From: Bacteroidales bacterium
GTDB lineage: Bacteria > Bacteroidota > Bacteroidia > Bacteroidales > UBA932
Assembly (NCBI GenBank): GCA_024694675.1
Contig: JAILJO010000005.1
Span: 1 to 51,692 of the forward strand
Direction: 5' to 3'
DNA length: 51,692 bases
Under the pieces are notes generated by a model. The model searched no databases, was not told where the DNA came from, and was given only the letters and a program-made list of their open reading frames with translations. The translations under genes were made by a program, and so were the position numbers. This document shows, piece after piece, positions 1 to 17,863 of the stretch. How positions within the stretch are numbered: the stretch's first letter is position 1; each line of letters starts with the position of its first letter.

Positions 1-194
1 AAGATGAAACTCAAGATGTCAGTTTACAACACGCTCCAAGTATTGGGAATCTCGCTCACAGATACAACGCCTCTTGAAGACCTCTTCAACAAATCTAACC
101 TCAATATTGACAAAGAACTTGACGGGTTCTATGAACCCACGTTGTTTGATTTTTAACTTTTAACTACGTCCACATCTTTTAGTGGACAGCAATG
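1..194 (+). mobile_element. 3' end of an IS4-like transposase gene plus putative IS right end
   Basis: Frame 1 reads ...KMKLKMSVYNTLQVLGISLTDTTPLEDLFNKSNLNIDKELDGFYEPTLFDF* (stop ~154-156), resembling the C-terminus of Bacteroidales IS4-family transposases. It is followed by the inverted repeat GTCCAC-N8-GTGGAC (168-187). The exact IS end is inferred. Confidence 0.6.
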
Positions 195-3100
195 ATAGCA
201 TGTGATTATGAAAACGGTTACTTTTATTGGAAATACATTGATAACAAGTCGATTGAAGAGTTTAAAAGCCGGTCTGAAAGAATTCAAGATACAGTTCGAT
301 ACCATTTCAAAGCAGAAGAGACATGTTCGAAAGAGAATGTCAAAGATACAATCACAGTTTGGAAAAGGTTATATAAGGAACGAATGGATGCCATCAAAGA
401 CGAGAAACAGATGGCAGAATCATTTGCTTCAGTCCAGAGGATAGCGTTTAATAGTACTCCATCGGAGTTACATGGTCTGAAAGACTCCCATATACCTAGA
501 CCTGAATCTGAAGCATTATACAACTGGATATTAGAAGATCTGCCCAAAGGAAACAGAAACATATGTCTTCTTGTTGGAGATGCAGGCACTGGAAAGTCTG
601 TGGTTATTAAAGACTTGATTGCCACCCTTGAGAAGAATGGAGTAAATAGCCTTTGCATCAAAGCAGACGCTATTGATGAGACCAACAATCCTATCTCCCT
701 GGAAACGGTTTATGAAACCATCGCTTTTTATGCGTCAAGTCATAAATCTATGGTCTTTGTCATTGATCAAATAGATGCTTTGTCTCAAAGCCTGTCTGCT
801 GATAGAAACCGATTAAACACTTTGATAGATGTGTTAACGGCTATTGGAGACTGGCCTAATGTTAGAGCAGTAGTTTCGTGTAGGAAATATGATTTAGAGT
901 TTGATGCTGTATTAAGTGGTATAAAAGAGAATTCAAACATAGTTGAATTAGGGCTGTTGTCAGAAGATGTCGTGAAGACTGTTTTATTGCGACTGAATCA
1001 GGAACTGGTAAATAAGATAAGCCCCATTACTCTCTCTCTCTTGAGGAACGTTCAGTATCTTAATTCATACTGCTTCTTGTATCAAAGGAATAAAAGCAGC
1101 CTTAATTTCAGCAGTCCTATTGAACTATATGATGCATTATGGGACTCCGGCCTGAACGGGTTGCCTTCAACAATAAATAGAGATGACACCGAACGAGTGT
1201 TATTCAGTATTGCGGAATGTATCAAACAAACAGGGACATTAAAACCGATTTGGCAACCTATTTCATATTTACGCGGGGCTTTTGAGTATCTTGCAAGTAA
1301 TGGCATAATAATCCCAGAAGGGAGAGTTGTTTCTTTTTTCCACCAGACATTTTACGACTATGCCTTGGCAAGGTACTACATTACTCAGAATAAGTCATTC
1401 ATCTCTGATTTGGAAAACGAGTTTCAGGGACTTGAAATACGCTCTACTGTAAAGGCTGTCCTGGAGTATAACAGGGGTCATAACGATTCCGGATATGCTT
1501 TGGAAATACAGAAACTTATGACCTCTGAGAGAATACGTCTCCACATCAAATTGCTGGCGATATCTACTCTTGCAACATCTGATGATCCAAGGCCTTTTGA
1601 GAAGAGATTAGTTAAGCAAGTCTGTTATTCGGATGAAAGAATTCTTAATCATTTTTTCAGAGGAGTCCAGGGCGAAAAATGGTATAGAACTGCTTTTGTC
1701 TTACTGAAAGCATTCTTGCCTGATTCATTAAGAGGTGGCATGCTGCTAATGCCCATGCTGAGCACACTTACCCGTTATTCATTTCAGCATCCAGATGATG
1801 TGTTTTTGTTGATAGATTCAATTAATGATAAAGATACAAAAGCATTTGCGAGGTCATACGTATTGAGGGGGCATAATGATTATCGTAACAATAAGGTAAT
1901 CGAGGCATTCAGGAGTGTCAGTGATTCCAATAGCTATTTTATCGTAAGTTGGATTCAAGATGCATTGCAAAGCAACGAGAAGTTTGGATTGGAAGAGGCA
2001 GGAGAACTGCTTTTAAGATATTTGGAATCAGGTATTCGCACTCACAATCACGACGGTTATGAGTTAGTTGATGTGCTTTTCAAGAATCTCTCTCAAACAC
2101 ATCCTCGACAATGTCTTTTTCTTCTAAACTCCAGTTTGATTCAGTATATAAGTAAAAACTCATCTGAGGGATATCACGGCTTCACGATTGCAAAAAGTAT
2201 TGATGATTACTCTTCCAATGAGTATTTGGAAAAAATCATTAAGTTATATGAACAGTTACTTCTTAAGTACTCTTCGGACCAAGCTTTGATTATTCCTATC
2301 GTAGATGAATTATTATCACTTAATAATGAGACCTCTGTTGCGATGGCTCTGCTAGCAATTGCTGAGCACCCAGAGTTGCATAATAAGAGAGTTGAATCGT
2401 TGTTAGCGAGTTCTTCGATAATAGAAAAGTACCTTCAGGGTTCAGTTGAGTTCTATTTCATGAAAATGCTGAAGTCGTGGTATTCAACACTGAATAGTCT
2501 TCGTGCACATAAGTACCAGAGACTTCTCCTGTCATATGTCTCTTCTTCCGATATGTACGTTGACAGAGACAGACAATACAGTGACCTGCTCTTCCCTAAT
2601 CTTTGGCGTGAAAAATGGGAATTAATATGTAATACATTACCTGATGATGGTTTGCTACCAGAGATGAAGAAATGTATGGGAGAACTTTTTAGACGATTTG
2701 GAAGAAAGATTGTTATAGAAAGAGATAGGCACTCAGTTACGATGGCAGTATATTGTGGCGGAATAACAGATAGCGCTACTTATGCTAAGTTTTCTACTGA
2801 CAATTGGCTTAGTTCTTTTTTGAAACTCGATGAGACAAAACACTGGCATTCCCATGCGCATCCTATTGATTTGAATGTCCATGCTGACGCTTTTAAGAAA
2901 TGTGTCTCCTCAGATCTAGATAAATTCAAAGATTTCGTCTTTGATATCGCAAGAAGGGATGATATTAGGCCATTCTATATAATATCTGGAATAGAAGGAT
3001 TGTTAGATGCTGGCGTGAGCATTGATGAGATGTGGCCTCTTGCCAAAAAGTATATCTCGGTAGAATATGCATCTGAGAATAGTTACTCATTTAAGCAAAT

Positions 3101-4160
3101 AACAGGGCATTATTGCAAGAGTAATAGTCTGTATATTGACGAGATTTTGCCTGTAATCATTGATGTTATTAATATGCCACTTGATGAGCGGCTGTTGACA
3201 AGTAAAGTTAATGAGGACGAAACGAAGTTGGATAATATTGTTAACAATATGATTAACCGGGCCATTAACTCAAAACAGGGACGTGCGATTGAACTTCTTA
3301 TCCAATTGACAGCAATTCCAGAAAGAAGACAACAGGCATATGATACTCTTTTAAACTTGGTTCCTTCTTTAAATGAAAGCTTGAGGACTTTGCCGATGCA
3401 TTATTTATATGTGAAAGAGCATTTTGATGCGAACTTGTATTTCCCGCTTCTAAAGAAAAGTTTAGAGTTTATGGGACCAGAGGCTTTGCCTCTTCGAGCT
3501 GATGCTATTCAATGGTGCTTCTATCATAAACCAGATTTGGTATCCGATTATGTAAACAAAATAGAGAAGGACTGTAGGAGCCATAACATCCTTTCGCTGA
3601 TTTGTTTCTATGGACTAAGTGTTAGCCGTTGCAAGGACGTATGTGAAGAAATGCTAGAACGGATTCTTACGCACAATGACGAGAACGTTATAGCAGAAAT
3701 AATAAAAGCGTCAATGAAGATGTTCAATGATCCTGATTATACCCTGTATTCAAAGAAATTTTTGGAGTGCTATTCATCGGATGGAAGAGAGGCGATTATT
3801 GATGCTTTTTGCCTGCATTGTGATGAACTGCCTGTAGAAGCTTTAACTTTCTATAGAGAATGGGCAAAATCATGGAAGATGATAAAGCACCGTGATATTT
3901 ACTCACAACTAGAATACGTTACAAAGTGTATTTCAAGTTATCCGGTAGAGTGCTATAAGTTCATACCAGAACAGGTTCTCTCTGGTATTGATAATGAACA
4001 GTTTTCAGATGAAGAAGTGGTAAAAGTACTCTTAAAGATATATGGTAGATTAAAAGAGGACGAAGATGAAGAATCGTTGAATGAGATAATTGATATGTTT
4101 GATGAGTATATTTTTAGGGGGAATCGAGTCATTTATTCTGCGTTGGATAAGCTCAATTAG
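192..4160 (+). CDS. Large STAND/AAA-type NTPase with long alpha-helical C-terminal region (defense-associated)
   Basis: 1322 aa. Walker A GDAGTGKS; Walker B-like MVFVIDQIDAL followed by VVSCRKYDL; ~900 aa repeat-like helical C-terminus. The 5' end abuts the IS end, so the start is uncertain. Confidence 0.7.
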   Translation: MIACDYENGYFYWKYIDNKSIEEFKSRSERIQDTVRYHFKAEETCSKENVKDTITVWKRLYKERMDAIKDEKQMAESFASVQRIAFNSTPSELHGLKDSHIPRPESEALYNWILEDLPKGNRNICLLVGDAGTGKSVVIKDLIATLEKNGVNSLCIKADAIDETNNPISLETVYETIAFYASSHKSMVFVIDQIDALSQSLSADRNRLNTLIDVLTAIGDWPNVRAVVSCRKYDLEFDAVLSGIKENSNIVELGLLSEDVVKTVLLRLNQELVNKISPITLSLLRNVQYLNSYCFLYQRNKSSLNFSSPIELYDALWDSGLNGLPSTINRDDTERVLFSIAECIKQTGTLKPIWQPISYLRGAFEYLASNGIIIPEGRVVSFFHQTFYDYALARYYITQNKSFISDLENEFQGLEIRSTVKAVLEYNRGHNDSGYALEIQKLMTSERIRLHIKLLAISTLATSDDPRPFEKRLVKQVCYSDERILNHFFRGVQGEKWYRTAFVLLKAFLPDSLRGGMLLMPMLSTLTRYSFQHPDDVFLLIDSINDKDTKAFARSYVLRGHNDYRNNKVIEAFRSVSDSNSYFIVSWIQDALQSNEKFGLEEAGELLLRYLESGIRTHNHDGYELVDVLFKNLSQTHPRQCLFLLNSSLIQYISKNSSEGYHGFTIAKSIDDYSSNEYLEKIIKLYEQLLLKYSSDQALIIPIVDELLSLNNETSVAMALLAIAEHPELHNKRVESLLASSSIIEKYLQGSVEFYFMKMLKSWYSTLNSLRAHKYQRLLLSYVSSSDMYVDRDRQYSDLLFPNLWREKWELICNTLPDDGLLPEMKKCMGELFRRFGRKIVIERDRHSVTMAVYCGGITDSATYAKFSTDNWLSSFLKLDETKHWHSHAHPIDLNVHADAFKKCVSSDLDKFKDFVFDIARRDDIRPFYIISGIEGLLDAGVSIDEMWPLAKKYISVEYASENSYSFKQITGHYCKSNSLYIDEILPVIIDVINMPLDERLLTSKVNEDETKLDNIVNNMINRAINSKQGRAIELLIQLTAIPERRQQAYDTLLNLVPSLNESLRTLPMHYLYVKEHFDANLYFPLLKKSLEFMGPEALPLRADAIQWCFYHKPDLVSDYVNKIEKDCRSHNILSLICFYGLSVSRCKDVCEEMLERILTHNDENVIAEIIKASMKMFNDPDYTLYSKKFLECYSSDGREAIIDAFCLHCDELPVEALTFYREWAKSWKMIKHRDIYSQLEYVTKCISSYPVECYKFIPEQVLSGIDNEQFSDEEVVKVLLKIYGRLKEDEDEESLNEIIDMFDEYIFRGNRVIYSALDKLN

Positions 4161-4174
4161 TATTGGTATTTGAG

Positions 4175-6025
4175 ATGGAAACATTGAATGATATTTGTTC
4201 TTTGGTCAGGAAAGAAGATGTGACATTGTTTGTCGGATCCGGGTGTTCAATACCGGTCGCTCCGCCAGCGTCCGCTTTGTCAAAGAAGTTTTATGAGGAA
4301 TTGAACGATTCGATGAGGGAAGGGGTCGATGAGAATAATCTCCAAGAAACTTCATCCAGACTGATGCTTCAAGAAGGGGACTCTTTAAAACGTGATGAAA
4401 TAATAAAGATGAGTTTTTCGGGACTTACTCCCCAGGCTTTTCATAATAATATGGCGCTCATCCCTCATATTCATACTATCATAACAACGAATTATGATAC
4501 GCTGATTGAGGATGCTTTTTGTTGCGGTGGCATACAGGTTTTCAGGAAGGATTCTGAATGTTGTTGTTTCCAAGAAAGACAGACGCATCTTTACAAAATA
4601 CATGGTGATGTCAATGAGTTGGGGAGTATTGTTTTGTCTACCGAGGATTATCGTAGAACAATAAAATCGCCGTCGCAGCCAATCCTTTGGAACCATGTTC
4701 TTTCCGAATTTACAAAACATCATGTTGTATTTGTTGGCTATAGTCTATCTGATGGTAATATCCTTAATTTGATAGAGTATGTTAAGGACATGTTTGGCAG
4801 TGAAGCCAAGGGAATGTATATGGTGGCACCTACCATATCTGAAGTTCAGAAGAAAAAGCTTTCTTCTCTTGGGATAAAACCAGTTATATCGGATGCGGAA
4901 AAGTTTTCTGCATCCGTACTTCAAAGTTTGAAAGATCACTATGCCGAGGACTTACATTGCTTGAACTGTTCGGAAGAGACCGCAGCTAAGTTCGCTCTCT
5001 TAAATAATCTGAGCATATCATTGAAAAGAAAGGTATCTGAAGTTAATATCAATGGATATTCGGCTCTTAAAGGCTCTCCCAATGTTCAGTTACACATGAC
5101 AACGAAGCCAATCGAACTCTTTACCAAAGGCTTTTCTGTTTCGGATTTTACTGATGTTGAGTTCGGTTCCGGACCTATGGTAAAGATTCCAAGTGAGGAT
5201 TTACAACACCTTGAGACACGTGTAAACGGTTTAAGGTTTGACTGGGATGAAATGAAACAGGATTTGTATATCGGCCCGGTTGAGAAATCAGTGCAAATGA
5301 GATTGAGTGTCCCAAGCCGTGGCATTCTGGAAGAGTGGACGATGTCAAGTTATGGGGCCAGGGATGGTGTATTGATGAAATGGGAATGTCCTGTATTATC
5401 TTTAAAAGTTGTTATCCGTATAAATGAAAATGGGACGGGGATAACAGGAGATTTCAATATGACAGTAAAGGACCGGTATGAAAATAACGATTTGGCTATC
5501 CGTATCTTTACTGCGATTTGCGCTTATTTGGAGTGTGCCGATGCGGAACTGTCTTTGAATAAAGGAAAACTGCAGAAATATACTCCTACTCATGATAAGA
5601 TTCGAATTGTAAAACTATGGCTGGAGTATGCTTCGATACTGAAATCTATTGAACTTGCATATGGGGAGAAATTCAAGTATTATGAACCATATGACAAAGA
5701 CCGTATGGAAGCTGCTTCTATTGTTCTTGCTTATTTGAGAAAAGAGGTTAGGCTGGTTAATTCGAAACGTATCCTAAGTTTTGACTGTACATATTCTCCA
5801 GATTACGATTATCCCGTTGGGTCTACGTATGCTGTTGTGGGCAAGCGCACTTTAGAAAAAGGCATTGAAGTCGGGGGCATTTGCTTTCCGATCTTCCATG
5901 AAACTATGATGTTTAACGGGCGTATTCTGGAGAATACCAGGCTTGATGAGAAGACAATGCATTTCCGGATGGAGAATAAGGATGGGGTGGAAAGGTATGT
6001 ATATAGTGATGTGGTTGATGAATAA
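4175..6025 (+). CDS. SIR2-like domain protein (putative NADase effector)
   Basis: N-terminal LFVGSGCSIPVAPP, TTNYDTLIEDAF, YKIHGDV and VFVGYSLSDGNI are SIR2-like motifs. ATG at 4175, 14 nt after the STAND gene stop. Confidence 0.8.
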   Translation: METLNDICSLVRKEDVTLFVGSGCSIPVAPPASALSKKFYEELNDSMREGVDENNLQETSSRLMLQEGDSLKRDEIIKMSFSGLTPQAFHNNMALIPHIHTIITTNYDTLIEDAFCCGGIQVFRKDSECCCFQERQTHLYKIHGDVNELGSIVLSTEDYRRTIKSPSQPILWNHVLSEFTKHHVVFVGYSLSDGNILNLIEYVKDMFGSEAKGMYMVAPTISEVQKKKLSSLGIKPVISDAEKFSASVLQSLKDHYAEDLHCLNCSEETAAKFALLNNLSISLKRKVSEVNINGYSALKGSPNVQLHMTTKPIELFTKGFSVSDFTDVEFGSGPMVKIPSEDLQHLETRVNGLRFDWDEMKQDLYIGPVEKSVQMRLSVPSRGILEEWTMSSYGARDGVLMKWECPVLSLKVVIRINENGTGITGDFNMTVKDRYENNDLAIRIFTAICAYLECADAELSLNKGKLQKYTPTHDKIRIVKLWLEYASILKSIELAYGEKFKYYEPYDKDRMEAASIVLAYLRKEVRLVNSKRILSFDCTYSPDYDYPVGSTYAVVGKRTLEKGIEVGGICFPIFHETMMFNGRILENTRLDEKTMHFRMENKDGVERYVYSDVVDE

Positions 6026-6120
6026 TAGGGTTATATAGATACTGGCAGTTTTTTTAGTTACTTGGATGGAGGGTGGAGAAAAAGGATAAAAAGTGAGATA
6101 ATAGACATATTATTTCATTA

Positions 6121-6155
6121 TTTGATTAATGTTTAATTTTTTTTTCATATATTTG
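6121..6155 (+). promoter_or_regulatory. Candidate Bacteroidales promoter (TTTG ... TATATTTG) upstream of the HTH-dnd operon
   Basis: TTTG at 6121-6124 and TATATTTG at 6148-6155, with the ATG at 6173. The spacer is slightly longer than consensus. Confidence 0.45.
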
Positions 6156-6172
6156 AATTAAGAAAAAAAATT

Positions 6173-6397
6173 ATGGTAAAAGATATCAATCGCATTAAAG
6201 TAGTACTTGTAGAAAAGAAGCGCACAAATAAATGGTTAGCAGAACAGTTGGGCTGTGCGCCTACTACCGTATCAAAGTGGTGCACAAATGCTTGCCAACC
6301 TCCTATGGAAACATATCTGAGAATTGCAAAGTTACTTGATGTGGAAATCGACAAGTTGCTAAACAATGAATATGCCAACGAATTGGTAAATGAATAG
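6173..6397 (+). CDS. XRE-family helix-turn-helix regulator
   Basis: 74 aa; NKWLAEQLGCAPTTVSKWCTNACQPPMETYLRIAKLLDVEIDKLL is a typical HTH_3. Overlaps the next gene by 8 nt. Confidence 0.85.
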   Translation: MVKDINRIKVVLVEKKRTNKWLAEQLGCAPTTVSKWCTNACQPPMETYLRIAKLLDVEIDKLLNNEYANELVNE

Positions 6398-7727
6398 ACG
6401 TATAGAGTATATTGTTGATGAGATTTTGGACCAGTATATGTATGCTGATTCAACTGAACGTCCATGGATTATCGGTTTTAGCGGTGGGAAAGATTCTACT
6501 GTACTATTAACTTTAGTATGGCTTGCTCTTCGGAAGATAAAGGAGGGTGTTGTCACTCCCTTTCAACTTAGAAGACCCGTCTACGTTGTTTGCAATGATA
6601 CGATGGTTGAGAATCCCATTATTTCATCTTACGTTGATGAGGTACTTGAACAAATAGAAATAAGAGCTCGTGAGGAGGATATGCCTATATTTGTGCGTAA
6701 AACAGTACCGAAATTAGAGGATTCCTTTTGGGTAAACGTTATCGGCAAGGGCTATCCTGTTCCAAACAATGCATTCCGGTGGTGTACAGAAAAGATGAAG
6801 ATTAAACCTACCGCCAGGTATATTACTGAGCAAGTTGATGAATGTGGTGAGGCAATTATATTGATTGGTACAAGAAAAGCAGAAAGTGCGACAAGGGCGC
6901 GTTCAATCAAAAAACATGAGATTCATGGCCAGCGATTAACTCATCATACTCTACTACATAATACATATGTTTACGCCCCAATAAAAGATCTTTATTTGGA
7001 GGAAGTTTGGTATATTATTAACGCTATCCCTTGTCCTTGGGGATTTGATAATAAGGTTCTGTTTAACATTTATATGGATGCTAGCGCTGATGACTATGAA
7101 TGTCCAACAGTTGTTACCGATAAGAGTCATGGCTCATGTGGTCAAAGTCGCTTTGGTTGTTGGGTATGCACGGTAGTAAAAGATGATAAATCAATGCGCT
7201 CACTCATCAATAATGGTCGAGAGTGGATGCAGCCGTTATACGACTTCCGTATAGAATTAGATTCAGAACGTAATATTATTGAGAATAGAATGCCTTACCG
7301 TCGTGATGGCCGACGTGCTGTTAACGATATGGGACCATATACATTTTCGTATCGTGCAAAGATTCTTCGTCGACTTCTTGAAGTTCAACATATATTACAA
7401 CTTAAAGATCCCAAGATAAAACTCATTTCAGACCAGGAATTGATTGCTATTCAGGTAAACTGGTATCGCGATTTCAATTTTGGTTACAAAGTGTCAGATA
7501 TTTATAATTCAATCTATAACGAGTCTTTCAGAATGGAAGAAAACGAAAAGAATAAGTTAGAAGCGGACTTAATGCGCGAGATCTGTCAGAACAATCCCGA
7601 GGAAGGAGAGTTGATAGAGCAGTTATTGCTTCTTCAAAAAAGTAAGTCTCTTATGCAGCGACGCCGTGGATTAAAGAACGAAATTGAATTACGTTTGAAA
7701 GAGTTTTTAGACAATAAGAAAAAATGA
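6390..7727 (+). CDS. dndC: DndC-like PAPS-reductase-family sulfurtransferase (DNA phosphorothioation)
   Basis: PP-loop IIGFSGGKDSTVLLTL; RWCTEKMKIKP; GTRKAES; SCGQSRFGCWVC cysteine cluster. Confidence 0.88.
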   Translation: MNRRIEYIVDEILDQYMYADSTERPWIIGFSGGKDSTVLLTLVWLALRKIKEGVVTPFQLRRPVYVVCNDTMVENPIISSYVDEVLEQIEIRAREEDMPIFVRKTVPKLEDSFWVNVIGKGYPVPNNAFRWCTEKMKIKPTARYITEQVDECGEAIILIGTRKAESATRARSIKKHEIHGQRLTHHTLLHNTYVYAPIKDLYLEEVWYIINAIPCPWGFDNKVLFNIYMDASADDYECPTVVTDKSHGSCGQSRFGCWVCTVVKDDKSMRSLINNGREWMQPLYDFRIELDSERNIIENRMPYRRDGRRAVNDMGPYTFSYRAKILRRLLEVQHILQLKDPKIKLISDQELIAIQVNWYRDFNFGYKVSDIYNSIYNESFRMEENEKNKLEADLMREICQNNPEEGELIEQLLLLQKSKSLMQRRRGLKNEIELRLKEFLDNKKK

Positions 7728-9811
7728 TAATAAAGTCGATAGAACTTAACAATTTCCGCATTTACCGGGGAAAGAACAAGATTGATTTAACTCCGAATGG
7801 AGAACATAATATAATCATTGTTAGTGGTAACAATGGTTATGGAAAAACAACGTTTCTCATGTCTCTTGTGTGGTGTTTATATGGGAAAAACATGGACAAG
7901 GTCGATGAACTATATAAAAAAGAGATAGATGAAAAAGGTTCATATAGTAAGTATATTGGGAATAGTTTGAATTTAACCGCGGCTGACAATGGGGAAACAC
8001 GTTTTTCGGTATCCGTTACATTCATCAATGTTGATATTCCTAATACAACCTGTACTGAAGTTACAATTGTTCGCTCCTACGATAGAGCCACAAGTGCTTC
8101 AGATGAGCTTGAAATACTCATAGATGGTAAGGCAAGTGATTTATTTGGAGATAAAGATGAGGAAGAGTTGTTTATTCGTGACTACATTTTGCCGATAGAG
8201 ATTGCAAAGTTTTTCTTTTTTGATGCAGAGAAAATAGTGTCATTTGCACAGGTTAACACGCCCAAACAACGTGCAGAATTGAGTCAAGCATATTCCCAAG
8301 TTTTAGGCATTCAGAAATATGCAGAATTGAAAAGTGAGTTGGAAAAATTACAAGATGACTATCGCAGGGAAGCAGCGCAGCCTCAAGATAAAAAAGAGTT
8401 TAACGAGCTTTTGGCATTGATAGCTAATGCTGAAGATCATATTTCTGATTGTGAAAGACGCATTTCTGAGCACCAAGAAAAGATTTCACTTTTAAAGTAC
8501 GAGTGCGGTGAACTACAAGAAAAGCTCATTCGCGAAGGTGACTTGATGAGTGTTGAGCGTCTTGAGGAGCTTAAGGGGAAAAAAGAAAGGTGTCAATCTG
8601 ATGTCAATGAGGCTCAAGAGGGTCTAAAAGAACTCTATAACTATATACCATTCGCGCTAGCTGGGAGTATCCTCTCAGATATGACCGTGCAAATTAAGGA
8701 AGAAAAGGTTTTCAATCAGAATAAGATTCAATTAGAAGGAATTGAAGAAAAAACCGATGATATTCTTGATGAGCTTGATAAAGCTCGGGATTCTTTTAAT
8801 GGACATATAGATATTAGGATAAGGAATTTTTATGAAAAAGAGATTAAAAGACTAATACTTAAGCATTTTTATAACGAACTTGATTTCGACAAGTATGATT
8901 CATTTAAAACCTTACATGATTTCTCCGATTTACAGTATGATGATTTTCTAGGTCTTTTAGAGAATATTAAATCGAGTAAGACCACATTTGAATCTATTTT
9001 CAACAAGTATTCAAAAGCAAAAGCGGAATTATTCTCAATTGAAAAAACTATTAGAGAGGCGGAAAAGAACGCCGAGAGCGAATACATTCAGTCGCTGCGC
9101 TTAAGAAAACAAAATAAAGAGGCAGAGATTACAAATCTCCAGGAAGAGAACGCACGTTTAAATGTATCTATAGAGCAAAAGAAAGAAGAGATTAAAGCCG
9201 CCAAACAAAAAAAAGCAATACTATCTGAAAGAATTGCTGTCTCGGCAAAAAACAAGGACATGGATGATGAGGCACGAATGCTTATCCTCACAATTCAAAA
9301 GTTTCTTTTACGTTTTAAGGATGAAAAGAAGAAGGCTCTTGAGAATAGACTAAAAGATAAACTAACTAGTTTCTTGCATAAGAAAGATTTGGTTAATAAT
9401 GTTGTAGTAGATATTCAAGGGAATGGTGAAGATGTGGATATTAATTTGTTTGATGCTGGTGGGAAGAAGATAGACAAGGGTATTCTATCAATGGGAGAAC
9501 GCCAGATGTTTGCTTCTGCGTTATTGGGAGCTTTGGTTGAGGAAACCGGTCTTGATTTTCCTGTATTCATTGATAGCCCTATGCAGAAATTTGACATTAA
9601 TCACAGTCAGAACATTCTGGCAAAGTTTTACCCCAATGTATCAAAACAGGTAGTATTATTCCCCCTATTGATGAAAGAGTTGACAGAGGAAGAATATGGA
9701 TTAATTGAGAGATATGTGAACAAGGCATTTCTTATTGAGAACCATAAAACTGGTTCGCAGTTCAAGGAAATTAAACCGCAAGAATTGTTTGACATTTATA
9801 AACAACAATAG
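7724..9811 (+). CDS. dndD: DndD-like SMC/Rad50-type ATPase
   Basis: IKSIELNNFRIYRGKNKIDLTPN, Walker A GNNGYGKTTFL, central coiled coil, LSMGERQMFASALLGAL signature, VFIDSPM. ATGA overlap with dndC. Confidence 0.88.
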   Translation: MIIKSIELNNFRIYRGKNKIDLTPNGEHNIIIVSGNNGYGKTTFLMSLVWCLYGKNMDKVDELYKKEIDEKGSYSKYIGNSLNLTAADNGETRFSVSVTFINVDIPNTTCTEVTIVRSYDRATSASDELEILIDGKASDLFGDKDEEELFIRDYILPIEIAKFFFFDAEKIVSFAQVNTPKQRAELSQAYSQVLGIQKYAELKSELEKLQDDYRREAAQPQDKKEFNELLALIANAEDHISDCERRISEHQEKISLLKYECGELQEKLIREGDLMSVERLEELKGKKERCQSDVNEAQEGLKELYNYIPFALAGSILSDMTVQIKEEKVFNQNKIQLEGIEEKTDDILDELDKARDSFNGHIDIRIRNFYEKEIKRLILKHFYNELDFDKYDSFKTLHDFSDLQYDDFLGLLENIKSSKTTFESIFNKYSKAKAELFSIEKTIREAEKNAESEYIQSLRLRKQNKEAEITNLQEENARLNVSIEQKKEEIKAAKQKKAILSERIAVSAKNKDMDDEARMLILTIQKFLLRFKDEKKKALENRLKDKLTSFLHKKDLVNNVVVDIQGNGEDVDINLFDAGGKKIDKGILSMGERQMFASALLGALVEETGLDFPVFIDSPMQKFDINHSQNILAKFYPNVSKQVVLFPLLMKELTEEEYGLIERYVNKAFLIENHKTGSQFKEIKPQELFDIYKQQ

Positions 9812-9812
9812 C

Positions 9813-11396
9813 ATGCAGATAAACATAAAAACATCCGCAGCGAACCAAACTGTTGTGTCTAGGCTCACACAACGTCTTCCAGGTGGAGTAAAGGAGAATA
9901 TCATTGCTCGCATAGCATTATGTTTTTCTTTGGCATCAGGCAAACGTTTTATGCAAAACGAGTTCAGTATATATGATTCTCAAGGCAAAGAGTATAAGGA
10001 TCATATATTGTTTGATTCTGCCAACCGTGATTATTATATCGCTCTTGTTTGTCAATCTTACGGTATTAACAAGAATAATGAATTAATTCCTAAATATGTT
10101 AAATTGCATATTGATCACGGATTGGAGCAGATTAATTATCTGTTTGAGAAAAGGCCTCAGTATACTTTTTTTGATTTCTTAGTTGAGTATTTAGAAAAGG
10201 GTATCGATTCCATTGAAGATGCCCCTATATCTCTTGATGCTGTTAGGAATAATAATCAGCATATTAGCAAGACCACTTTTACTGGTCCAATAGACATAAG
10301 AATTGGATACAATCCTGAAACTCATGCGCCGATTAATTATTGCTTTAATAATACAAAGACGTACAATAACCAGCATATTGCTGTTGCAGGGAAATCTGGA
10401 TCAGGCAAGTCCCAATTTGCTTTAGAGTTTCTTCGCCAGTTAGTTACAAGAACGCAGGGACAGGTCAATTTCTTGTTTTTAGACTTTAAGGGTATTTCTT
10501 CAGATGATAGAAAGAAAATGGAAGGGTTTTTTAAAGAAACCCATACTACATGCATTAATGCCCCGGATGTCCCATTCCCACTCAACCCACTATCGTTTAT
10601 TGACAATATTAATGACAGGAATAAGCTAGTTGGTATAAACAAGTTTGTTGACATAATAGCTAAGTATTCAAATATTGGGAAAAGGCAACAGCAAACGCTG
10701 AAAGAAGCGGTGCAAGAAGCATTTATTCGAAAAAAAGGTGGAGACTATCCCTCGTTGGAAGAAGTATACGATTTGATTATTGACCGAGTTGGGGATAATC
10801 GTGATACATTAACTGAAATTATGGGCCGCTTAAGTGAATATGAATTATTTGCTTCAAAGATTAGTAATCCAAGCTTGTTCTTAAACAACAATTATTATTT
10901 ATCTTTGTCAGGTGAGTTGGACAGTACAGTACGATTTACATCTGTTTTCCTTATTATTAATTATATTTTTAATGTTTTTTCTAATATGGGAAGCACTGAA
11001 GTAAATGATAATTATAGAGAAATGCGCTATGTTCTAATGATAGATGAAGCTCATGATTTGTTCCGAGAAAAGAAATCACTAGAGATTCTAGAGGTTATTC
11101 TTAGAAAGATTCGTTCATATGGTGTGTCCGTTTTTCTATTGTCACAAGGCATTACCGAATACAATACGGCGAATTTTGATTTCTCACAAGAATGCGAGAC
11201 CTCTTTTCTTTTGCCCATAAACGATATTGCTAACACAAAGGCAATCAATAAGTTCTTGGGGTTGACAATCAAAGATGGTAATACGGCTATTCGAAACATA
11301 GAAAAACTTAAGAATGGACAAGCAATCTCGAATATGAAAGAGTATCCGAAGACGGAAGTGTTTGATGTTGTACAATATTGGAAAGAATCATTATGA
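9813..11396 (+). CDS. dndE: DndE domain fused to a HerA/FtsK-like ATPase
   Basis: The N-terminal ~120 aa (VVSRLTQRLPGGVKENIIARIALCFSLASGKRF...YIALVCQSYGIN...KLHIDHGLEQI) match the DndE pattern. This is followed by Walker A AVAGKSGSGKSQFALEFL and Walker B YVLMIDEAHDLF. ATG at 9813. Confidence 0.8.
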   Translation: MQINIKTSAANQTVVSRLTQRLPGGVKENIIARIALCFSLASGKRFMQNEFSIYDSQGKEYKDHILFDSANRDYYIALVCQSYGINKNNELIPKYVKLHIDHGLEQINYLFEKRPQYTFFDFLVEYLEKGIDSIEDAPISLDAVRNNNQHISKTTFTGPIDIRIGYNPETHAPINYCFNNTKTYNNQHIAVAGKSGSGKSQFALEFLRQLVTRTQGQVNFLFLDFKGISSDDRKKMEGFFKETHTTCINAPDVPFPLNPLSFIDNINDRNKLVGINKFVDIIAKYSNIGKRQQQTLKEAVQEAFIRKKGGDYPSLEEVYDLIIDRVGDNRDTLTEIMGRLSEYELFASKISNPSLFLNNNYYLSLSGELDSTVRFTSVFLIINYIFNVFSNMGSTEVNDNYREMRYVLMIDEAHDLFREKKSLEILEVILRKIRSYGVSVFLLSQGITEYNTANFDFSQECETSFLLPINDIANTKAINKFLGLTIKDGNTAIRNIEKLKNGQAISNMKEYPKTEVFDVVQYWKESL

Positions 11397-12484
11397 AACA
11401 AGAGATTAAATATGTAGATATTAATAATCTTCAATTAGATTTATATAATCCTCGTCTTCCAAAATCCAAGCAAGGGACGGATGAAGGTGTAGTTATTGAG
11501 TACTTACTCCTTGAAGCAGCCACTTTGGAATTGATGGAATCAATTGGAGAAAACGACTTTTTTGTCGGAGAAATGCTTCTGGTTATTCCCAGTGAAAGGT
11601 CTGGTAGTTTTATAGTGGTTGAGGGTAATAGGCGCCTTACGGCTGTTCTATTACTTAATAAACCCGAATTGGCTAGAGTTAAAAAGGCTTCAATAAAAGA
11701 GATATACGATTCGGCGAAGTATAAGCCTTCTAGTTTACCCTGCCTTATCTTTAATAGTCGAGAAGAAATCCAAAAATACATTGGTTTTGTTCATATTACA
11801 GGGAAAAAATCGTGGCGAATGTTGGAAAAAGCACGCTACTTGTATGACCTGAGTCATTCCGACAAATTTCAAGGACTATCTTTTATTGATGTGTGCAAAG
11901 AAATTGCTAGAGTAATAGGGAGTCGATCTCCCTATGTAAGAAAGATGCTCACAAGTTTCCAGTTATATACCATTATTGAGGACGAAAAGTTCTATCAAAT
12001 AGATGGTTTGTCAGACTCCTCGTTCTTCCTTAATTATTTTTCCGATGGCTTGCAAAAAGAAAACATACGAATGTACATGGGGGTCGAGCTTGATTCTGAT
12101 GATCCATTAAAGAACTTAAACAAAGAGCATCTTAAAGACCTCGTAACATGGTGGTTCAAAAAAAGTGAGGGGGTTTCTCGTGTTATTGGAGATAGCGATG
12201 GAATGAAGAAACTCAATGAGGTACTGGGAAATGAAATAGCATTATTTGCCTTTAAAAGAGGGGCTAGTATTGATATAGCATACGAACTGACTAATGACAT
12301 TGATTTACAGTTTGAGCGTAAGGTAAAAGAATCATTGATGGCGATTGAGCAGGCAGATGGATTGTCTAATAAAGTCAAGACCTTTTATATCGACTTATAT
12401 GATGATTTGAAGAGTTTACGTCAGATAGCAGTAAAGATTAACGATTTCAAGACAAGGAGGGAGCAGGATGGCGACGAGTTTTGA
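11393..12484 (+). CDS. ParB-like (ParB/sulfiredoxin fold) protein
   Basis: YVDINNLQLDLYNPRLPKS ... FIVVEGNRRLTAVLLLNKPEL is ParB_N-like. ATGA overlap with the upstream dndE fusion. Confidence 0.7.
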   Translation: MKQEIKYVDINNLQLDLYNPRLPKSKQGTDEGVVIEYLLLEAATLELMESIGENDFFVGEMLLVIPSERSGSFIVVEGNRRLTAVLLLNKPELARVKKASIKEIYDSAKYKPSSLPCLIFNSREEIQKYIGFVHITGKKSWRMLEKARYLYDLSHSDKFQGLSFIDVCKEIARVIGSRSPYVRKMLTSFQLYTIIEDEKFYQIDGLSDSSFFLNYFSDGLQKENIRMYMGVELDSDDPLKNLNKEHLKDLVTWWFKKSEGVSRVIGDSDGMKKLNEVLGNEIALFAFKRGASIDIAYELTNDIDLQFERKVKESLMAIEQADGLSNKVKTFYIDLYDDLKSLRQIAVKINDFKTRREQDGDEF

Positions 12485-13424
12485 TGAAAAATATTCCCAA
12501 AGCATTGTTAATTTGGCAAATGTCGGCAGACCCGATTATTCTAGAGATGAGACTAACCTATATGCGGACTTTGTGGAACTAATGGTGGTTTTCTCAAAAG
12601 GAGACGGGATTGCATATGGGGATATCCAGGACCGTTTTTTTGGTGAACCAGATGAGAAAAATTCTACTGAAATCAATGATGATAATGAATCTTTGATTGG
12701 CGGTATTATTAACGTCATTAAGGAGCGGCTTTTTTTATTTGGGGGTCTTTATCCGTTTATGGTCTTGCCAGAACAGACCATTATATTAAAAAGTGACTTG
12801 ACGTCGTCTCAAAAGTTATATCTTTTTTTGCTTTTTTCTTCTTCACTTGACATTTTTAGTTCTTTCAACACAGAGTTAACGACTGATTTTGAATTCGTTT
12901 CATATGAGGCAATAAAGACTTTCCTGCCAAATGCGATTGTTAAACATTTTGGAAAACTCTCTGAATACACGGGTTCAGCAATAGAAAAAATTAAGAATCT
13001 GGCTAATGACATAGGGCTACCCTTTGATGACTACGAGATCGGATGCATTGGAGAAAGGAATAATCAGGAACGTGGATTGGATATCGTTTCATGGATACCT
13101 TTTGAAGACAAGTGCCAGAATAAAGTAGTTTTCTTATGTCAATGTGCTTGTGGCAAACAATATGAATCAAAGCAACACGATATACGACGATATCAGAATT
13201 ATTACCGCTTCTACAAAACTAAGCCTCAGCTAACATTATTTGTCCCGTATTCTTTGATTAACCCAAAGGAGAATAAGTTTTATCATTCTGATTATGTAGA
13301 AGGTGATTATCTGATTTTTGAGAGGTTGCGCATTATTAGATTAGCTATCCAAAAGGAAGATTTGCTTTCATTTTTAAAATCTACTTGCCTTCTTGAGAAA
13401 TGTATTCATGATTATTGTGCTTAG
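12468..13424 (+). CDS. Putative PD-(D/E)XK-type restriction endonuclease-like protein
   Basis: ERGLDIVSWIPFEDKCQNKVVFLCQCACGKQYESKQ resembles the D-x(n)-(E/Q)xK core of defense nucleases. Overlaps the ParB-like gene by 17 nt. Confidence 0.55.
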   Translation: MATSFDEKYSQSIVNLANVGRPDYSRDETNLYADFVELMVVFSKGDGIAYGDIQDRFFGEPDEKNSTEINDDNESLIGGIINVIKERLFLFGGLYPFMVLPEQTIILKSDLTSSQKLYLFLLFSSSLDIFSSFNTELTTDFEFVSYEAIKTFLPNAIVKHFGKLSEYTGSAIEKIKNLANDIGLPFDDYEIGCIGERNNQERGLDIVSWIPFEDKCQNKVVFLCQCACGKQYESKQHDIRRYQNYYRFYKTKPQLTLFVPYSLINPKENKFYHSDYVEGDYLIFERLRIIRLAIQKEDLLSFLKSTCLLEKCIHDYCA

Positions 13425-13847: not shown

Positions 13848-13890
13848 TAAGTGATGAATTTTGAATGCCACCGAAAGTGTTATATGGCCT

Positions 13891-15180
13891 ATGAAACTGA
13901 GAAAGATAAAACTTACAGATTTTCGTTGTTTTAAAGAGTATGAAATAGGACTTAAAAGCGGAGTGAATCTTCTTATAGGTGAGAACGGCTCTGGTAAGAC
14001 TTCAGTAATACGGGGTGTTACACTGGCATTGAACGCTTTTTTCAAAGGCTTCAGTGATGAGAACACTTCTTGCGCAGGTATAGCATCAGAGGATTTCTGC
14101 CATTCTGTAGCAAACGAGTCGAAGAGTTTGACTCGACCTGCTGAAGTGTTGTTTTCCACCATAAGTGGTGACGAGAACGTTTCCATTTTCAGGAAATCGA
14201 AGAAGACATCAACAATATATCAGAATGCCAGAGAGTTTAACTGGAAAAACAAGGATTTGTATAGTAAGGTGGCAAAAGAGGATGGTGATCATCGTCAAAC
14301 ACCTCTGCCGCTGTTTGCATTCTTTGCTACTGATGATATACATCTGAAATATCAGAATGTGGAAGCCAAGTCTTTCAAGGATTACTATCTTGCACCATCT
14401 TTTGGATACTACCTCTGCCTAAGAGGAGGCTTCCTGGCTAAATATTGGGTTAACAGGATGCTGGTTCTGGAAGAAGGCGGCAAGGGTGAAGAAGAATTGG
14501 AGATAGTGAGGAATGCGATCAGGACCGCATTGGGTAATGACGGGTGCGGAATCATCTGTGATGTGACTATCAGGCCCAAACAGGGATATGTTTATTTCAT
14601 CTTTACTGACGGCAGGGAGGTACGATTTGAAGATTTGTCAGATGGTTATATGCGTCTGGTGAACATGGTAATAGATATGGCATTCAGGTGCAGTATCCTA
14701 AATAGGCCTCTTTTCGGTCTACAGGCTTGTTCAAGGACTGAGGGGGTGGCTTGTGTTGACGAGATAGATGACCATCTGCATCCGTCATTGCAGGCAAAGG
14801 TGATAAAGGGGTTGAAACTGGCATTTCCCAGAGTGCAGTTCGTGATCTCCACACACGCACCGATGGTGATGTCAAGCGTGATGACAAACGAGGAGAATGA
14901 GGTGCTACACTTGGAATATCGTGACGGCACATATATGGCAATGCCCATTAACACATACGGTCTGGATGCATCGACAATACTGGAGATGTATATGGGAAAG
15001 AATGCACGAGTGGCAGAAGTGGAGGAACGGCTGAAGGAACTGTTTGACTTGATAGACAGCGATCATTATCCCGAGGCAAAGGCAAAGTTAAAGGAACTGA
15101 CGAACGATTTCGGTGATACTCTTCCTGAAATCATACAGGCTCGTACGATGCTGGACTTTAGAATGGAGAGCGATGATTAA
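13891..15180 (+). CDS. ptuA: PtuA-like AAA/OLD-type ATPase (Septu family)
   Basis: MKLRKIKLTDFRCFKEYEIGL, Walker A GENGSGKTSVI, GVACVDEIDDHLHPSLQAKVIKGL, VQFVISTHAPMVM. Immediately followed by an HNH gene. Confidence 0.8.
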   Translation: MKLRKIKLTDFRCFKEYEIGLKSGVNLLIGENGSGKTSVIRGVTLALNAFFKGFSDENTSCAGIASEDFCHSVANESKSLTRPAEVLFSTISGDENVSIFRKSKKTSTIYQNAREFNWKNKDLYSKVAKEDGDHRQTPLPLFAFFATDDIHLKYQNVEAKSFKDYYLAPSFGYYLCLRGGFLAKYWVNRMLVLEEGGKGEEELEIVRNAIRTALGNDGCGIICDVTIRPKQGYVYFIFTDGREVRFEDLSDGYMRLVNMVIDMAFRCSILNRPLFGLQACSRTEGVACVDEIDDHLHPSLQAKVIKGLKLAFPRVQFVISTHAPMVMSSVMTNEENEVLHLEYRDGTYMAMPINTYGLDASTILEMYMGKNARVAEVEERLKELFDLIDSDHYPEAKAKLKELTNDFGDTLPEIIQARTMLDFRMESDD

Positions 15181-15823
15181 GATTGACAAGGGTCGTGAGC
15201 CTGCGGAGTGGACGGAGCAGAGGAATACTCCCGGAATTACATACGAGACTGCACGCAAGGATGCCTTGAGGCAGGCACTGCTGGAAGAACAAGGAGGACT
15301 GTGCGGTTACTGTATGCGTCGCGTGTCTTTTGTGCCCGGTGAGGTGACAAATACCCGCATAGAACATCTGAAGCCGCGTACGCTGAGTCTGGCACAAGGG
15401 AAGCCGGAAGAGACGCTGGCCTATAGCAACATGATTCTGTGTTGCAATGGAGATATTGACGGAAGCAAGAATTTCCATTGTGACGTGAGCAAGGATGAGA
15501 CGGAGATTCACTTTAAGCCTTTTAACGCTGCTGCAATAGCTACGATTTCCTATTCATCGGGTGACGGTAGTATCAAATCGTCTAATGCTGTTTATGACAA
15601 GGATCTTAATGAAGTGCTGAACCTGAACCATCCACGGCTGAAAGCAAACAGACGTGCTGTATTAATAGGTTTGGCAACAGAGATGGGAAAGAATACGTGG
15701 AGCAAGTCGGAAATCCAACATAAGTTGACGTATTATAGTAGCAGGACATCTGGCGGCCAATTGCATGTATACTGTGGTGTGGTAATTTGGTATCTTTCGA
15801 AGAAACTAAGGCAGTTTGTCTGA
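15173..15823 (+). CDS. ptuB: PtuB-like HNH endonuclease
   Basis: CGYCMRR...RIEHLKPR...LAYSNMILCCNG...HCD HNH/zinc-type motifs. 8-nt overlap with ptuA; ends YCGVVIWYLSKKLRQFV*. Confidence 0.8.
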   Translation: MIKIDKGREPAEWTEQRNTPGITYETARKDALRQALLEEQGGLCGYCMRRVSFVPGEVTNTRIEHLKPRTLSLAQGKPEETLAYSNMILCCNGDIDGSKNFHCDVSKDETEIHFKPFNAAAIATISYSSGDGSIKSSNAVYDKDLNEVLNLNHPRLKANRRAVLIGLATEMGKNTWSKSEIQHKLTYYSSRTSGGQLHVYCGVVIWYLSKKLRQFV

Positions 15824-16200: not shown

Positions 16201-17385
16201 CTATAGCGCTGGTATCAGGTCTACGGCCTTGCGTTTGCTCTCGTCCACGATCTTGGCGTAAACCTGTGTGGTGGTGACCCGCTTGTGGCCGAGGAGTTTG
16301 GAGACGGTGTACAGGTCGGCTCCGTAAGCTAGGTCCAGGGTTGCGAAGGTATGGCGGGCGCAGTGGAAGGTAATGGGTTTGTCAATCCCGGCCCGTTCCA
16401 CCATCTTCCTGAGGTATTTCTGGATCATGCACCGTTTTGGGAGTCTGAAAACGGTATCGGCATCTTTGGATTTGCCTCTTTCCGGCATTACCTTCAGGGC
16501 ATTTTCTGAGAGGGGCAGATATAACTTTTCCTTAGTCTTGATCTGGGTCAGGTCTATCTGCCTGGTCCCATCAGACATGGTTTTTATCTTCCCCCAGGTG
16601 AGGGCTTCGATGTCGCCGAGGCGGAGTCCGCAGAAACAGCTGAAAAGGAATGCTGGCAGGACAGCACGCTCATATTCGTTCTGCGGGACCACCGCGGCAA
16701 GAGCGCGGACTTCCGGCATGGTGAGGTAACAGCGGTTGGACGCCGGTTTGGCAGGCTTGTCCTTGGGCTCCATTTTGGTTACGGGATTGTATTTGATGAT
16801 ATCGTCCCGGACCGCCTTGTTGAGCGCCGCGTTAAAGATACCGAAATAATCGTACTGCGTGTGCGGAGAAAGTGGCTTTGGCGTGAAGTTCTTCTTCTTG
16901 ATGGGCTGGCGGTCTTCCCGCTTGGGCGGCAATGTCTTGGCTCGCTTCAGATAGGACACAAAGCCCATACAGAATTCTTTGTCAATGCTTCCAATCTCCA
17001 CCTGGTCACCGGCGTATTTAATGAAATGGTTGATTCCATTGTCGTATGTCTGGTAGGTGCTGGTCCCCCTTTCTTTCGCCTTCTGAGAAAGAGAGCGCAT
17101 ATAATCCACAAAGTTCATCTGGCTGCGTAGACGGGCGTTGCTGAAACCGAACTCGCCGTTCTGGAGTTCCACAATCTTTTGCGCCTTGTATGCGTTTGCC
17201 GTCCTCAGCGTCTCTGCATTTTTGTCCTTCTCTACACCCGAACGCTCCGGGACGAGGTACAGTTTCAGGAACTCGTACTGGCGCACCCCGCCGGAGTAGT
17301 AATCCAGGTACAGGGACTGGCTTCCGTCCTTCAGTTTCTTTGCCCGCAGGCGTATGGGTTCCTTGTTTTGTTTCAGCTTTCTCAT
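16201..17385 (-). CDS. Tyrosine recombinase/integrase (Bacteroidales type)
   Basis: C-terminal motifs CGLRLGDIEALTW, ITFHCARHTFATLDLAYGADLYTVSKLLGHKRVTTTQVYAKIVDESK. Probable start MRKLKQNKEPIRL with ATG at 17385. Confidence 0.92.
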   Translation of the reverse strand: MRKLKQNKEPIRLRAKKLKDGSQSLYLDYYSGGVRQYEFLKLYLVPERSGVEKDKNAETLRTANAYKAQKIVELQNGEFGFSNARLRSQMNFVDYMRSLSQKAKERGTSTYQTYDNGINHFIKYAGDQVEIGSIDKEFCMGFVSYLKRAKTLPPKREDRQPIKKKNFTPKPLSPHTQYDYFGIFNAALNKAVRDDIIKYNPVTKMEPKDKPAKPASNRCYLTMPEVRALAAVVPQNEYERAVLPAFLFSCFCGLRLGDIEALTWGKIKTMSDGTRQIDLTQIKTKEKLYLPLSENALKVMPERGKSKDADTVFRLPKRCMIQKYLRKMVERAGIDKPITFHCARHTFATLDLAYGADLYTVSKLLGHKRVTTTQVYAKIVDESKRKAVDLIPAL

Positions 17386-17403
17386 AGCATTTCCCTTTGC
17401 CTG

Positions 17404-17448
17404 CAAAGATAGCGAAAATTTGTTACCGAGTAACAAATGGGTAACAAA
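17404..17448 (-). promoter_or_regulatory. Integrase promoter with palindromic operator-like sequence
   Basis: Minus-strand TATCTTTG (17404-17411). Just upstream is TTTGTTAC-CGA-GTAACAAA (17419-17437) and a further GTAACAAA (17441-17448). Confidence 0.5.
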
Positions 17449-17741
17449 AATGAGGGTATTATTGTGTTATCAATGTCAACGAGGGTCTTTGAGGGCGAAA
17501 AAGAATAATGCGCTACACGCATTTGTAACGGCATTATTATAGCATTTTTGTAACTTTTTCATTTCACCGGGAGACCCCCATAAGCGTGAAATGCTCCCAT
17601 ATTGTTTAGTTTTAGTTTATTTACAAATATAACAAATAATTGCTAATAAATAAACTGAAAAACGATAATTGAATTCCGGAGGCCCAAAGGGCCGACAAGG
17701 GGGAGTTTGAGGGGGCGTAGCCCCTTCAATGGAGTGAAACG

Positions 17742-17787
17742 ACTTGAGTCATTCCGACCATAAAAAAAAGCAGCTCGTGCTGCTTTT
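17742..17787 (-). terminator. Rho-independent terminator after tRNA-Pro, flanked by an inverted copy of the tRNA 3' end
   Basis: Minus strand AAAAGCAGCACGAGCTGCTTTTTTTT (17762-17787), then TGGTCGGAATGACTCAAGTCG, an imperfect repeat of the tRNA tail. Confidence 0.65.
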
Positions 17788-17863
17788 TGGTCGGGATGAC
17801 TCGACTCGAACGAGCGACCCCTACGTCCCGAACGTAGTGCGCTACCAACTGCGCTACATCCCG
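17788..17863 (-). tRNA. tRNA-Pro (anticodon CGG)
   Basis: Minus strand CGGGATGTAGCGCAGTTGGTAGCGCACTACGTTCGGGACGTAGGGGTCGCTCGTTCGAGTCGAGTCATCCCGACCA. Cloverleaf stems form, anticodon loop TTCGGGA, encoded CCA. Confidence 0.93.

Follow-up and report, generated by a model that had tools for sequence, protein, structure and literature searches.

A DndE protein fused to a HerA/FtsK-class ATPase in Bacteroidales (DndEi) and the interchangeable cassettes encoded behind it

Results

The dnd genes and their surroundings

The DNA analysed here, referred to as the window, is a stretch of 51,692 nucleotides from a Bacteroidales genome (contig JAILJO010000005.1), and carries three directly consecutive forward-strand genes in the order dndC-dndD-dndEi, an order kept in nearly all loci that have enough flanking sequence. 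The first, dndC (6390..7727), encodes a sulfurtransferase that keeps its four cluster-type cysteines (TIGR03183, 424 bits against a cut-off of 290), and the second, dndD (7724..9811), an ABC-type ATPase that has no CxC hook (TIGR03185, 270 bits against 246), both thresholds being the curated NCBIfam cut-offs. A single base separates the dndD stop codon (ending at 9811) from the ATG of dndEi at 9813. The dndEi gene (9813..11396) is a single uninterrupted reading frame of 527 codons, and its start is judged correct since residue 1 aligns with residue 1 in many homologues.

The specificity loop of the window DndC, as defined in PMC12193691, reads NNA, compared with TRS in the E. coli enzyme; it matches neither TRS (GAAC) nor R-x-K/R (GGCC). 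GAAC occurs in the window at chance frequency. Judged from sequence, these systems may have a different phosphorothioate (PT) motif. There is no dndA gene at the locus, and the sulfur would therefore come from a host cysteine desulfurase; genes of this family are found elsewhere in the same genome.

Directly upstream of the dnd genes (192-6025) lie a STAND-type NTPase (1322 residues) and then a SIR2_2 protein (620 residues), probably another defence pair. On the other side are a PtuA/PtuB pair (13861-15823), of the Septu type or the retron Ec78 effector type, and a gene for a tyrosine recombinase near a tRNA-Pro (16201-17863, with the tRNA at 17788-17863), which likely mark the end of the island and its integration site.

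The two domains of DndEi

An earlier note on this DNA had described the dndEi product as a DndE segment continuing into a HerA/FtsK-like ATPase of ~400 residues, and had proposed a check of the domain boundaries. Carried out with Pfam, sequence profiles and an AlphaFold2 model, that check places DndE at residues 5-108 (9825..10136, +) and the ATPase at residues 159-523 (10287..11381, +). The fusion is thus confirmed in an intact reading frame; an ATPase is present, as the note had it, but the domain proper runs from residue ~159 to 523. The DndE domain scores 63 bits with Pfam PF08870, whose cut-off is 25 (E = 3e-17), and a profile of 58 relatives matches the solved DndE structure 7x4e over residues 17-113 (E = 3.8e-9) and 7es4, the solved C-terminal domain of DptH/DndH, over residues 159-523 (E = 3.6e-40). 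The model, predicted as a monomer, has a mean pLDDT of 86, and a fold search with it again gave 7es4 as the top PDB match (E = 1.2e-19, TM 0.84 on the target), with VirB4 and HerA ranking next. This fold match covers the ATPase part only; the DndE part is assigned from the sequence profiles and from the helices of the model, where the prediction is poor for its first six residues.

Both of the nucleotide-binding motifs that had been picked out beforehand are present and their key residues are invariant in the 58 relatives: G193, G196, G198 and K199 in the Walker A motif GKSGSGKS (residues 193-200; 10389..10412, +), and D411, E412, A413 and H414 in the Walker B motif LMIDEAHD (residues 408-415; 11034..11057, +). 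R434 and the sensor-type Q445 are likewise invariant, and R431 is nearly so. The marks of the HerA/FtsK class are described as a sensor-1 glutamine and an arginine finger just before it (PMC10853773); alongside its Walker motifs, the window protein has Q445 as sensor-1 and R434 as the probable finger.

Spread and ancestry of the fusion

The phylogenetic distribution of the fusion, which the earlier note had also proposed to trace, was followed by scanning the contigs of 84,980 species. The scan found 265 relatives, of which the best 80 are almost all from Bacteroidota, 49-89% identical and mostly full length. A few relatives are labelled Bacillota or Proteobacteria; nearly all of these are metagenome bins, and they may represent mis-binned contigs. 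Within the window's order the fused form is present in 16 of the 17 genomes that have a DndE domain (one cut by a contig end included), and in a phylum-wide sample it is present in five of ten. No relative of the fusion was found in viral contigs and no full-length relative in phage and plasmid records, and carriage by phages or plasmids was rejected on the latter ground.

Several loci depart from the common arrangement. On a Burkholderia glumae plasmid (L142:11067-12608), DndD is followed by a protein of 513 residues whose N-terminus resembles DndE weakly (16.9 bits) and which also has a genuine FtsK alpha plus motor domain; it may be a DndE-FtsK fusion of independent origin. Five further loci (L050, L051, L052, L157 and L158) have a divergent DndD and a fused DndE-HerA with no DndC gene seen nearby, and in several of them an upstream protein of 600-760 residues matches RNA_pol_A_CTD, Sigma70_r4 or HA. 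In one locus (L076) two sets stand in tandem: dndC-dndD-dndE, its DndE stand-alone, precedes a second set made up of a partial dndC, a dndD and a fused dndEi that has a DndB cassette.

In a tree of the ATPase domains, those of DndH, among them that of L155 from the same class, form a clade of their own (100/100), and the two fused clades, A and B, group together (98/98) separately from it. The dndEi ATPase is therefore not a captured DndH domain; for a recent capture from the same-class DndH of L155 the tree gives no support. In the DndD tree, the Bacteroidota rows with a stand-alone DndE join fused clade A in a group with good support, from which fused clade B is excluded. The stand-alone rows nest among the fused ones, where the forks are poorly settled, and the ATPase was either lost once or joined twice.

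Restriction partners and cassettes

All nine stand-alone DndE loci found by the DndE and DndEi searches have an adjoining PbeA or DndH/DndFGH. The picture differs for fused loci: of the 43 that are non-redundant and flanked on each side by 5 kb or more, 42 have neither DndFGH nor PbeA, and the exception (L073) has only a weak generic helicase match. The difference gives a Fisher p of 3e-9, although the rows are related and few independent events therefore lie behind this value. The absence of DndFGH and PbeA from fused loci looks new.

What, then, stands behind the fusion? A census of 91 non-redundant fused loci revealed three recurrent cassettes: a small protein with a DndB-like protein (25 loci), the small gene, of 160-190 residues, having no Pfam match; a ParB-like protein with a candidate nuclease (19 loci); and a HATPase with a Methyltransf_35 protein (three loci, plus two in which a HARE-HTH/Mrr nuclease comes first). 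A quick tree built from 49 fusion proteins requires no fewer than 14 cassette changes. One swap is seen in a pair of loci, L060 from Bacteroides acidifaciens and L059, which are 99.6% identical over 5.8 kb (~5765-11580), a stretch that comprises dndC-dndD-dndEi and ends at the stop codon of the fusion; past that codon the cassettes are unrelated, and similarity resumes further down. L059 is labelled Bacillota, by transfer or by mis-binning.

The window has the second kind of cassette. Its first gene (11393..12484, +), which overlaps the dndEi stop codon and occupies the same slot in 19 non-redundant fused loci, encodes a ParB-like protein with an EGNRR motif and a weak match to ParB 4umk. The second (12468..13424, +) has no Pfam match and encodes a candidate PD-(D/E)xK nuclease. 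A fold search with the model of this protein (pLDDT 90) placed MspJI, a modification-dependent restriction enzyme, at the top, with a probability of 1.00 but an E-value of 3.7e-3 and a TM below 0.3. D205 and Q225 are invariant, and the motif reads QCAC with an equally invariant K235 displaced, an unusual position for the catalytic lysine.

The same pair is present, with no Dnd genes, in 77 of the 80 viral contigs (L194-L273) retrieved with the ParB-like gene, with a median overlap between the two genes of ~4 bases. In 46 of the 77 a cytosine methyltransferase resembling the one in phage Wphi lies within 1.5 kb of the pair, and in 58 it lies anywhere in the locus. The pair is also seen in phages Wphi and vB_PaeM-D14A.

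Discussion

The fusion is already known, as the earlier note had supposed it might be from other lineages: it is DndEi, reported in 2016, in Bacteroidales in 2020, and as clade 3 of the HerA/FtsK ATPases in 2024. The organism of the 2016 work is reportedly Riemerella anatipestifer. DndEi was described as a DndE with an extra C-terminal helicase/ATPase domain, encoded in a PT modification cluster, whose helicase activity is reported to be essential for phosphorothioation (Zheng et al. 2016, J Biol Chem 291:1492, doi 10.1074/jbc.M115.694018), and in published work its ATPase is stimulated by DNA carrying the target motif. Compared by this description of the architecture, the window protein shows no difference from it, having an N-terminal DndE and a C-terminal helicase/ATPase domain and being encoded with dndC and dndD. 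The same architecture has been reported in Bacteroides and Prevotella (PMC7464106), and proteins joining DndE to a HerA/FtsK domain, encoded next to an ABC ATPase related to DndD as in the window, have been placed in clade 3 (Rakesh, Aravind and Krishnan 2024, PMC10853773). On swappable cassettes behind the fusion the main text of the latter paper, where it deals with clade 3, is silent, and their presence directly behind the fusion, as interchangeable restriction cassettes, looks new.

Two other relationships need to be considered. DndH/DptH proteins are ~1,600-1,750 residues long, with an SF2 remnant, a TRD, an inactive methylase and a REase core. The dndEi ATPase shares its fold (TM 0.84) and sequence profile with the C-terminal domain of these proteins (7es4), but only the C-terminal ~370 positions of DndH match the 527-residue dndEi, the extra restriction core of ~1,300 residues is peculiar to DndH, and the DndH ATPases are a separate clade. 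Membership of the DndH family was rejected, the nuclease core being missing, the ATPase falling outside the DndH clade and no DndFGH lying near fused loci. The suggestion that the fusion merges the roles of DndE and a DptH-type ATPase thus holds for the type of ATPase, whereas the merger itself is unsupported, given the separate clade and the absence of everything else in DptH. As for the PbeABCD/CxC-type systems, the best PADLOC match to the window DndD is indeed the 'PbeC' model (PDLC02742, 706 bits); the window locus differs, however, in having no CxC hook and no PbeA, and the PbeC identity was rejected for these reasons. The model name seems misleading for such loci.

We conclude, with a probability of about 0.75, that this is DndEi and that it acts as DndE subunit in a PT complex of DndC, DndD and DndEi, with a built-in motor of the HerA/FtsK class that serves modification. 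Domain make-up, conserved motifs, operon and cassette swapping were established directly; the window copy is presumed active. In E. coli, DndE binds coiled coil 2 of DndD (PMC12193691), so that the fusion would put the ATPase at the DndCDE ring around the DNA. The DndE domain would dock on DndD and contact DNA, and the DNA-stimulated ATPase would move along the duplex, or open it, so that DndC could place sulfur supplied by a host cysteine desulfurase. Restriction would fall to the separate, interchangeable cassette behind dndEi, here the ParB-like protein and the MspJI-like nuclease, which would spare modified DNA; this part for the cassette is suggested by its position. Three points count against this reading. 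DndE of the canonical kind needs no ATPase domain to modify DNA, so that a motor is not a general need; the DndC loop reads NNA rather than the TRS of the GAAC enzymes; and members of the HerA/FtsK group generally act as hexameric translocases of double-stranded DNA.

The gene neighbourhood suggests that the ParB-nuclease pair is probably a restriction half, with methylation as the self-mark in the prophages and PT here. SspE and DndI, which combine a ParB-like PT sensor with an HNH nuclease (PMC11662687), offer a model of how it may work, since there too a ParB-superfamily protein and a nuclease are coupled to a PT module; the window cassette differs in consisting of two genes, in its EGNRR motif and in its predicted PD-(D/E)xK rather than HNH nuclease. 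More broadly, we suggest tentatively, as somewhat short of an even bet, that DndC-DndD-DndEi is a fixed Bacteroidota modification chassis with swapped restriction cassettes, and that the ParB-nuclease pair, whose self-mark in P2-like prophages would be cytosine methylation, is one kind of pair matching two chemically different marks, a methylated base and a backbone sulfur. The pair might instead be an unrelated defence module that has landed in a defence island with no functional link to DndEi, and its occurrence in 77 viral contigs free of Dnd genes and the further defence genes near the window locus would agree with this. We think it unlikely, however, as the pair overlaps the dndEi stop codon and takes that exact slot in 19 non-redundant loci, and as a DNA methyltransferase adjoins it in 46 of the 77 prophage cases, as expected of a restriction half.

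Could the ATPase of dndEi work in restriction, either alongside modification or in its place? It would then replace the DndH or PbeA motor and deliver unmodified DNA to the cassette nuclease, linking both halves of the system, and this would suit both its DndH C-domain type and the absence of DndFGH and PbeA from all but one of the 43 fused loci when all nine stand-alone loci have one or the other. We nevertheless regard it as improbable: in published DndEi work, as cited above, the domain is linked with modification; the Bacteroidota rows with a stand-alone DndE are a single clade, so that one or two events may lie behind the exclusion; and there are fused loci with no recognised cassette. 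An artefact of assembly or of a frameshift, merging two genes, has next to no probability, since, for all that the source genome is incomplete (86%, in 157 contigs), the fusion is found at full length in many independent assemblies, isolates and MAGs alike, at 49-89% identity, and so is due neither to chance nor to assembly error.

The fusion having been published already, the value of the present analysis of it lies in confirmation and scope. The fused form is the usual one in this order, and searches for a DndE of ~110 residues, or reliance on the PADLOC PbeC name, will therefore mislabel such loci. The cassette result outweighs the fusion, and the exchangeable cassettes, together with the ParB-nuclease pair that prophages share, deserve following up. 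Loci with near-identical modification genes and differing downstream genes are natural swap experiments on how restriction modules recognise the self-mark, and the ParB-nuclease pair connects the PT loci with the methylation loci of prophages.
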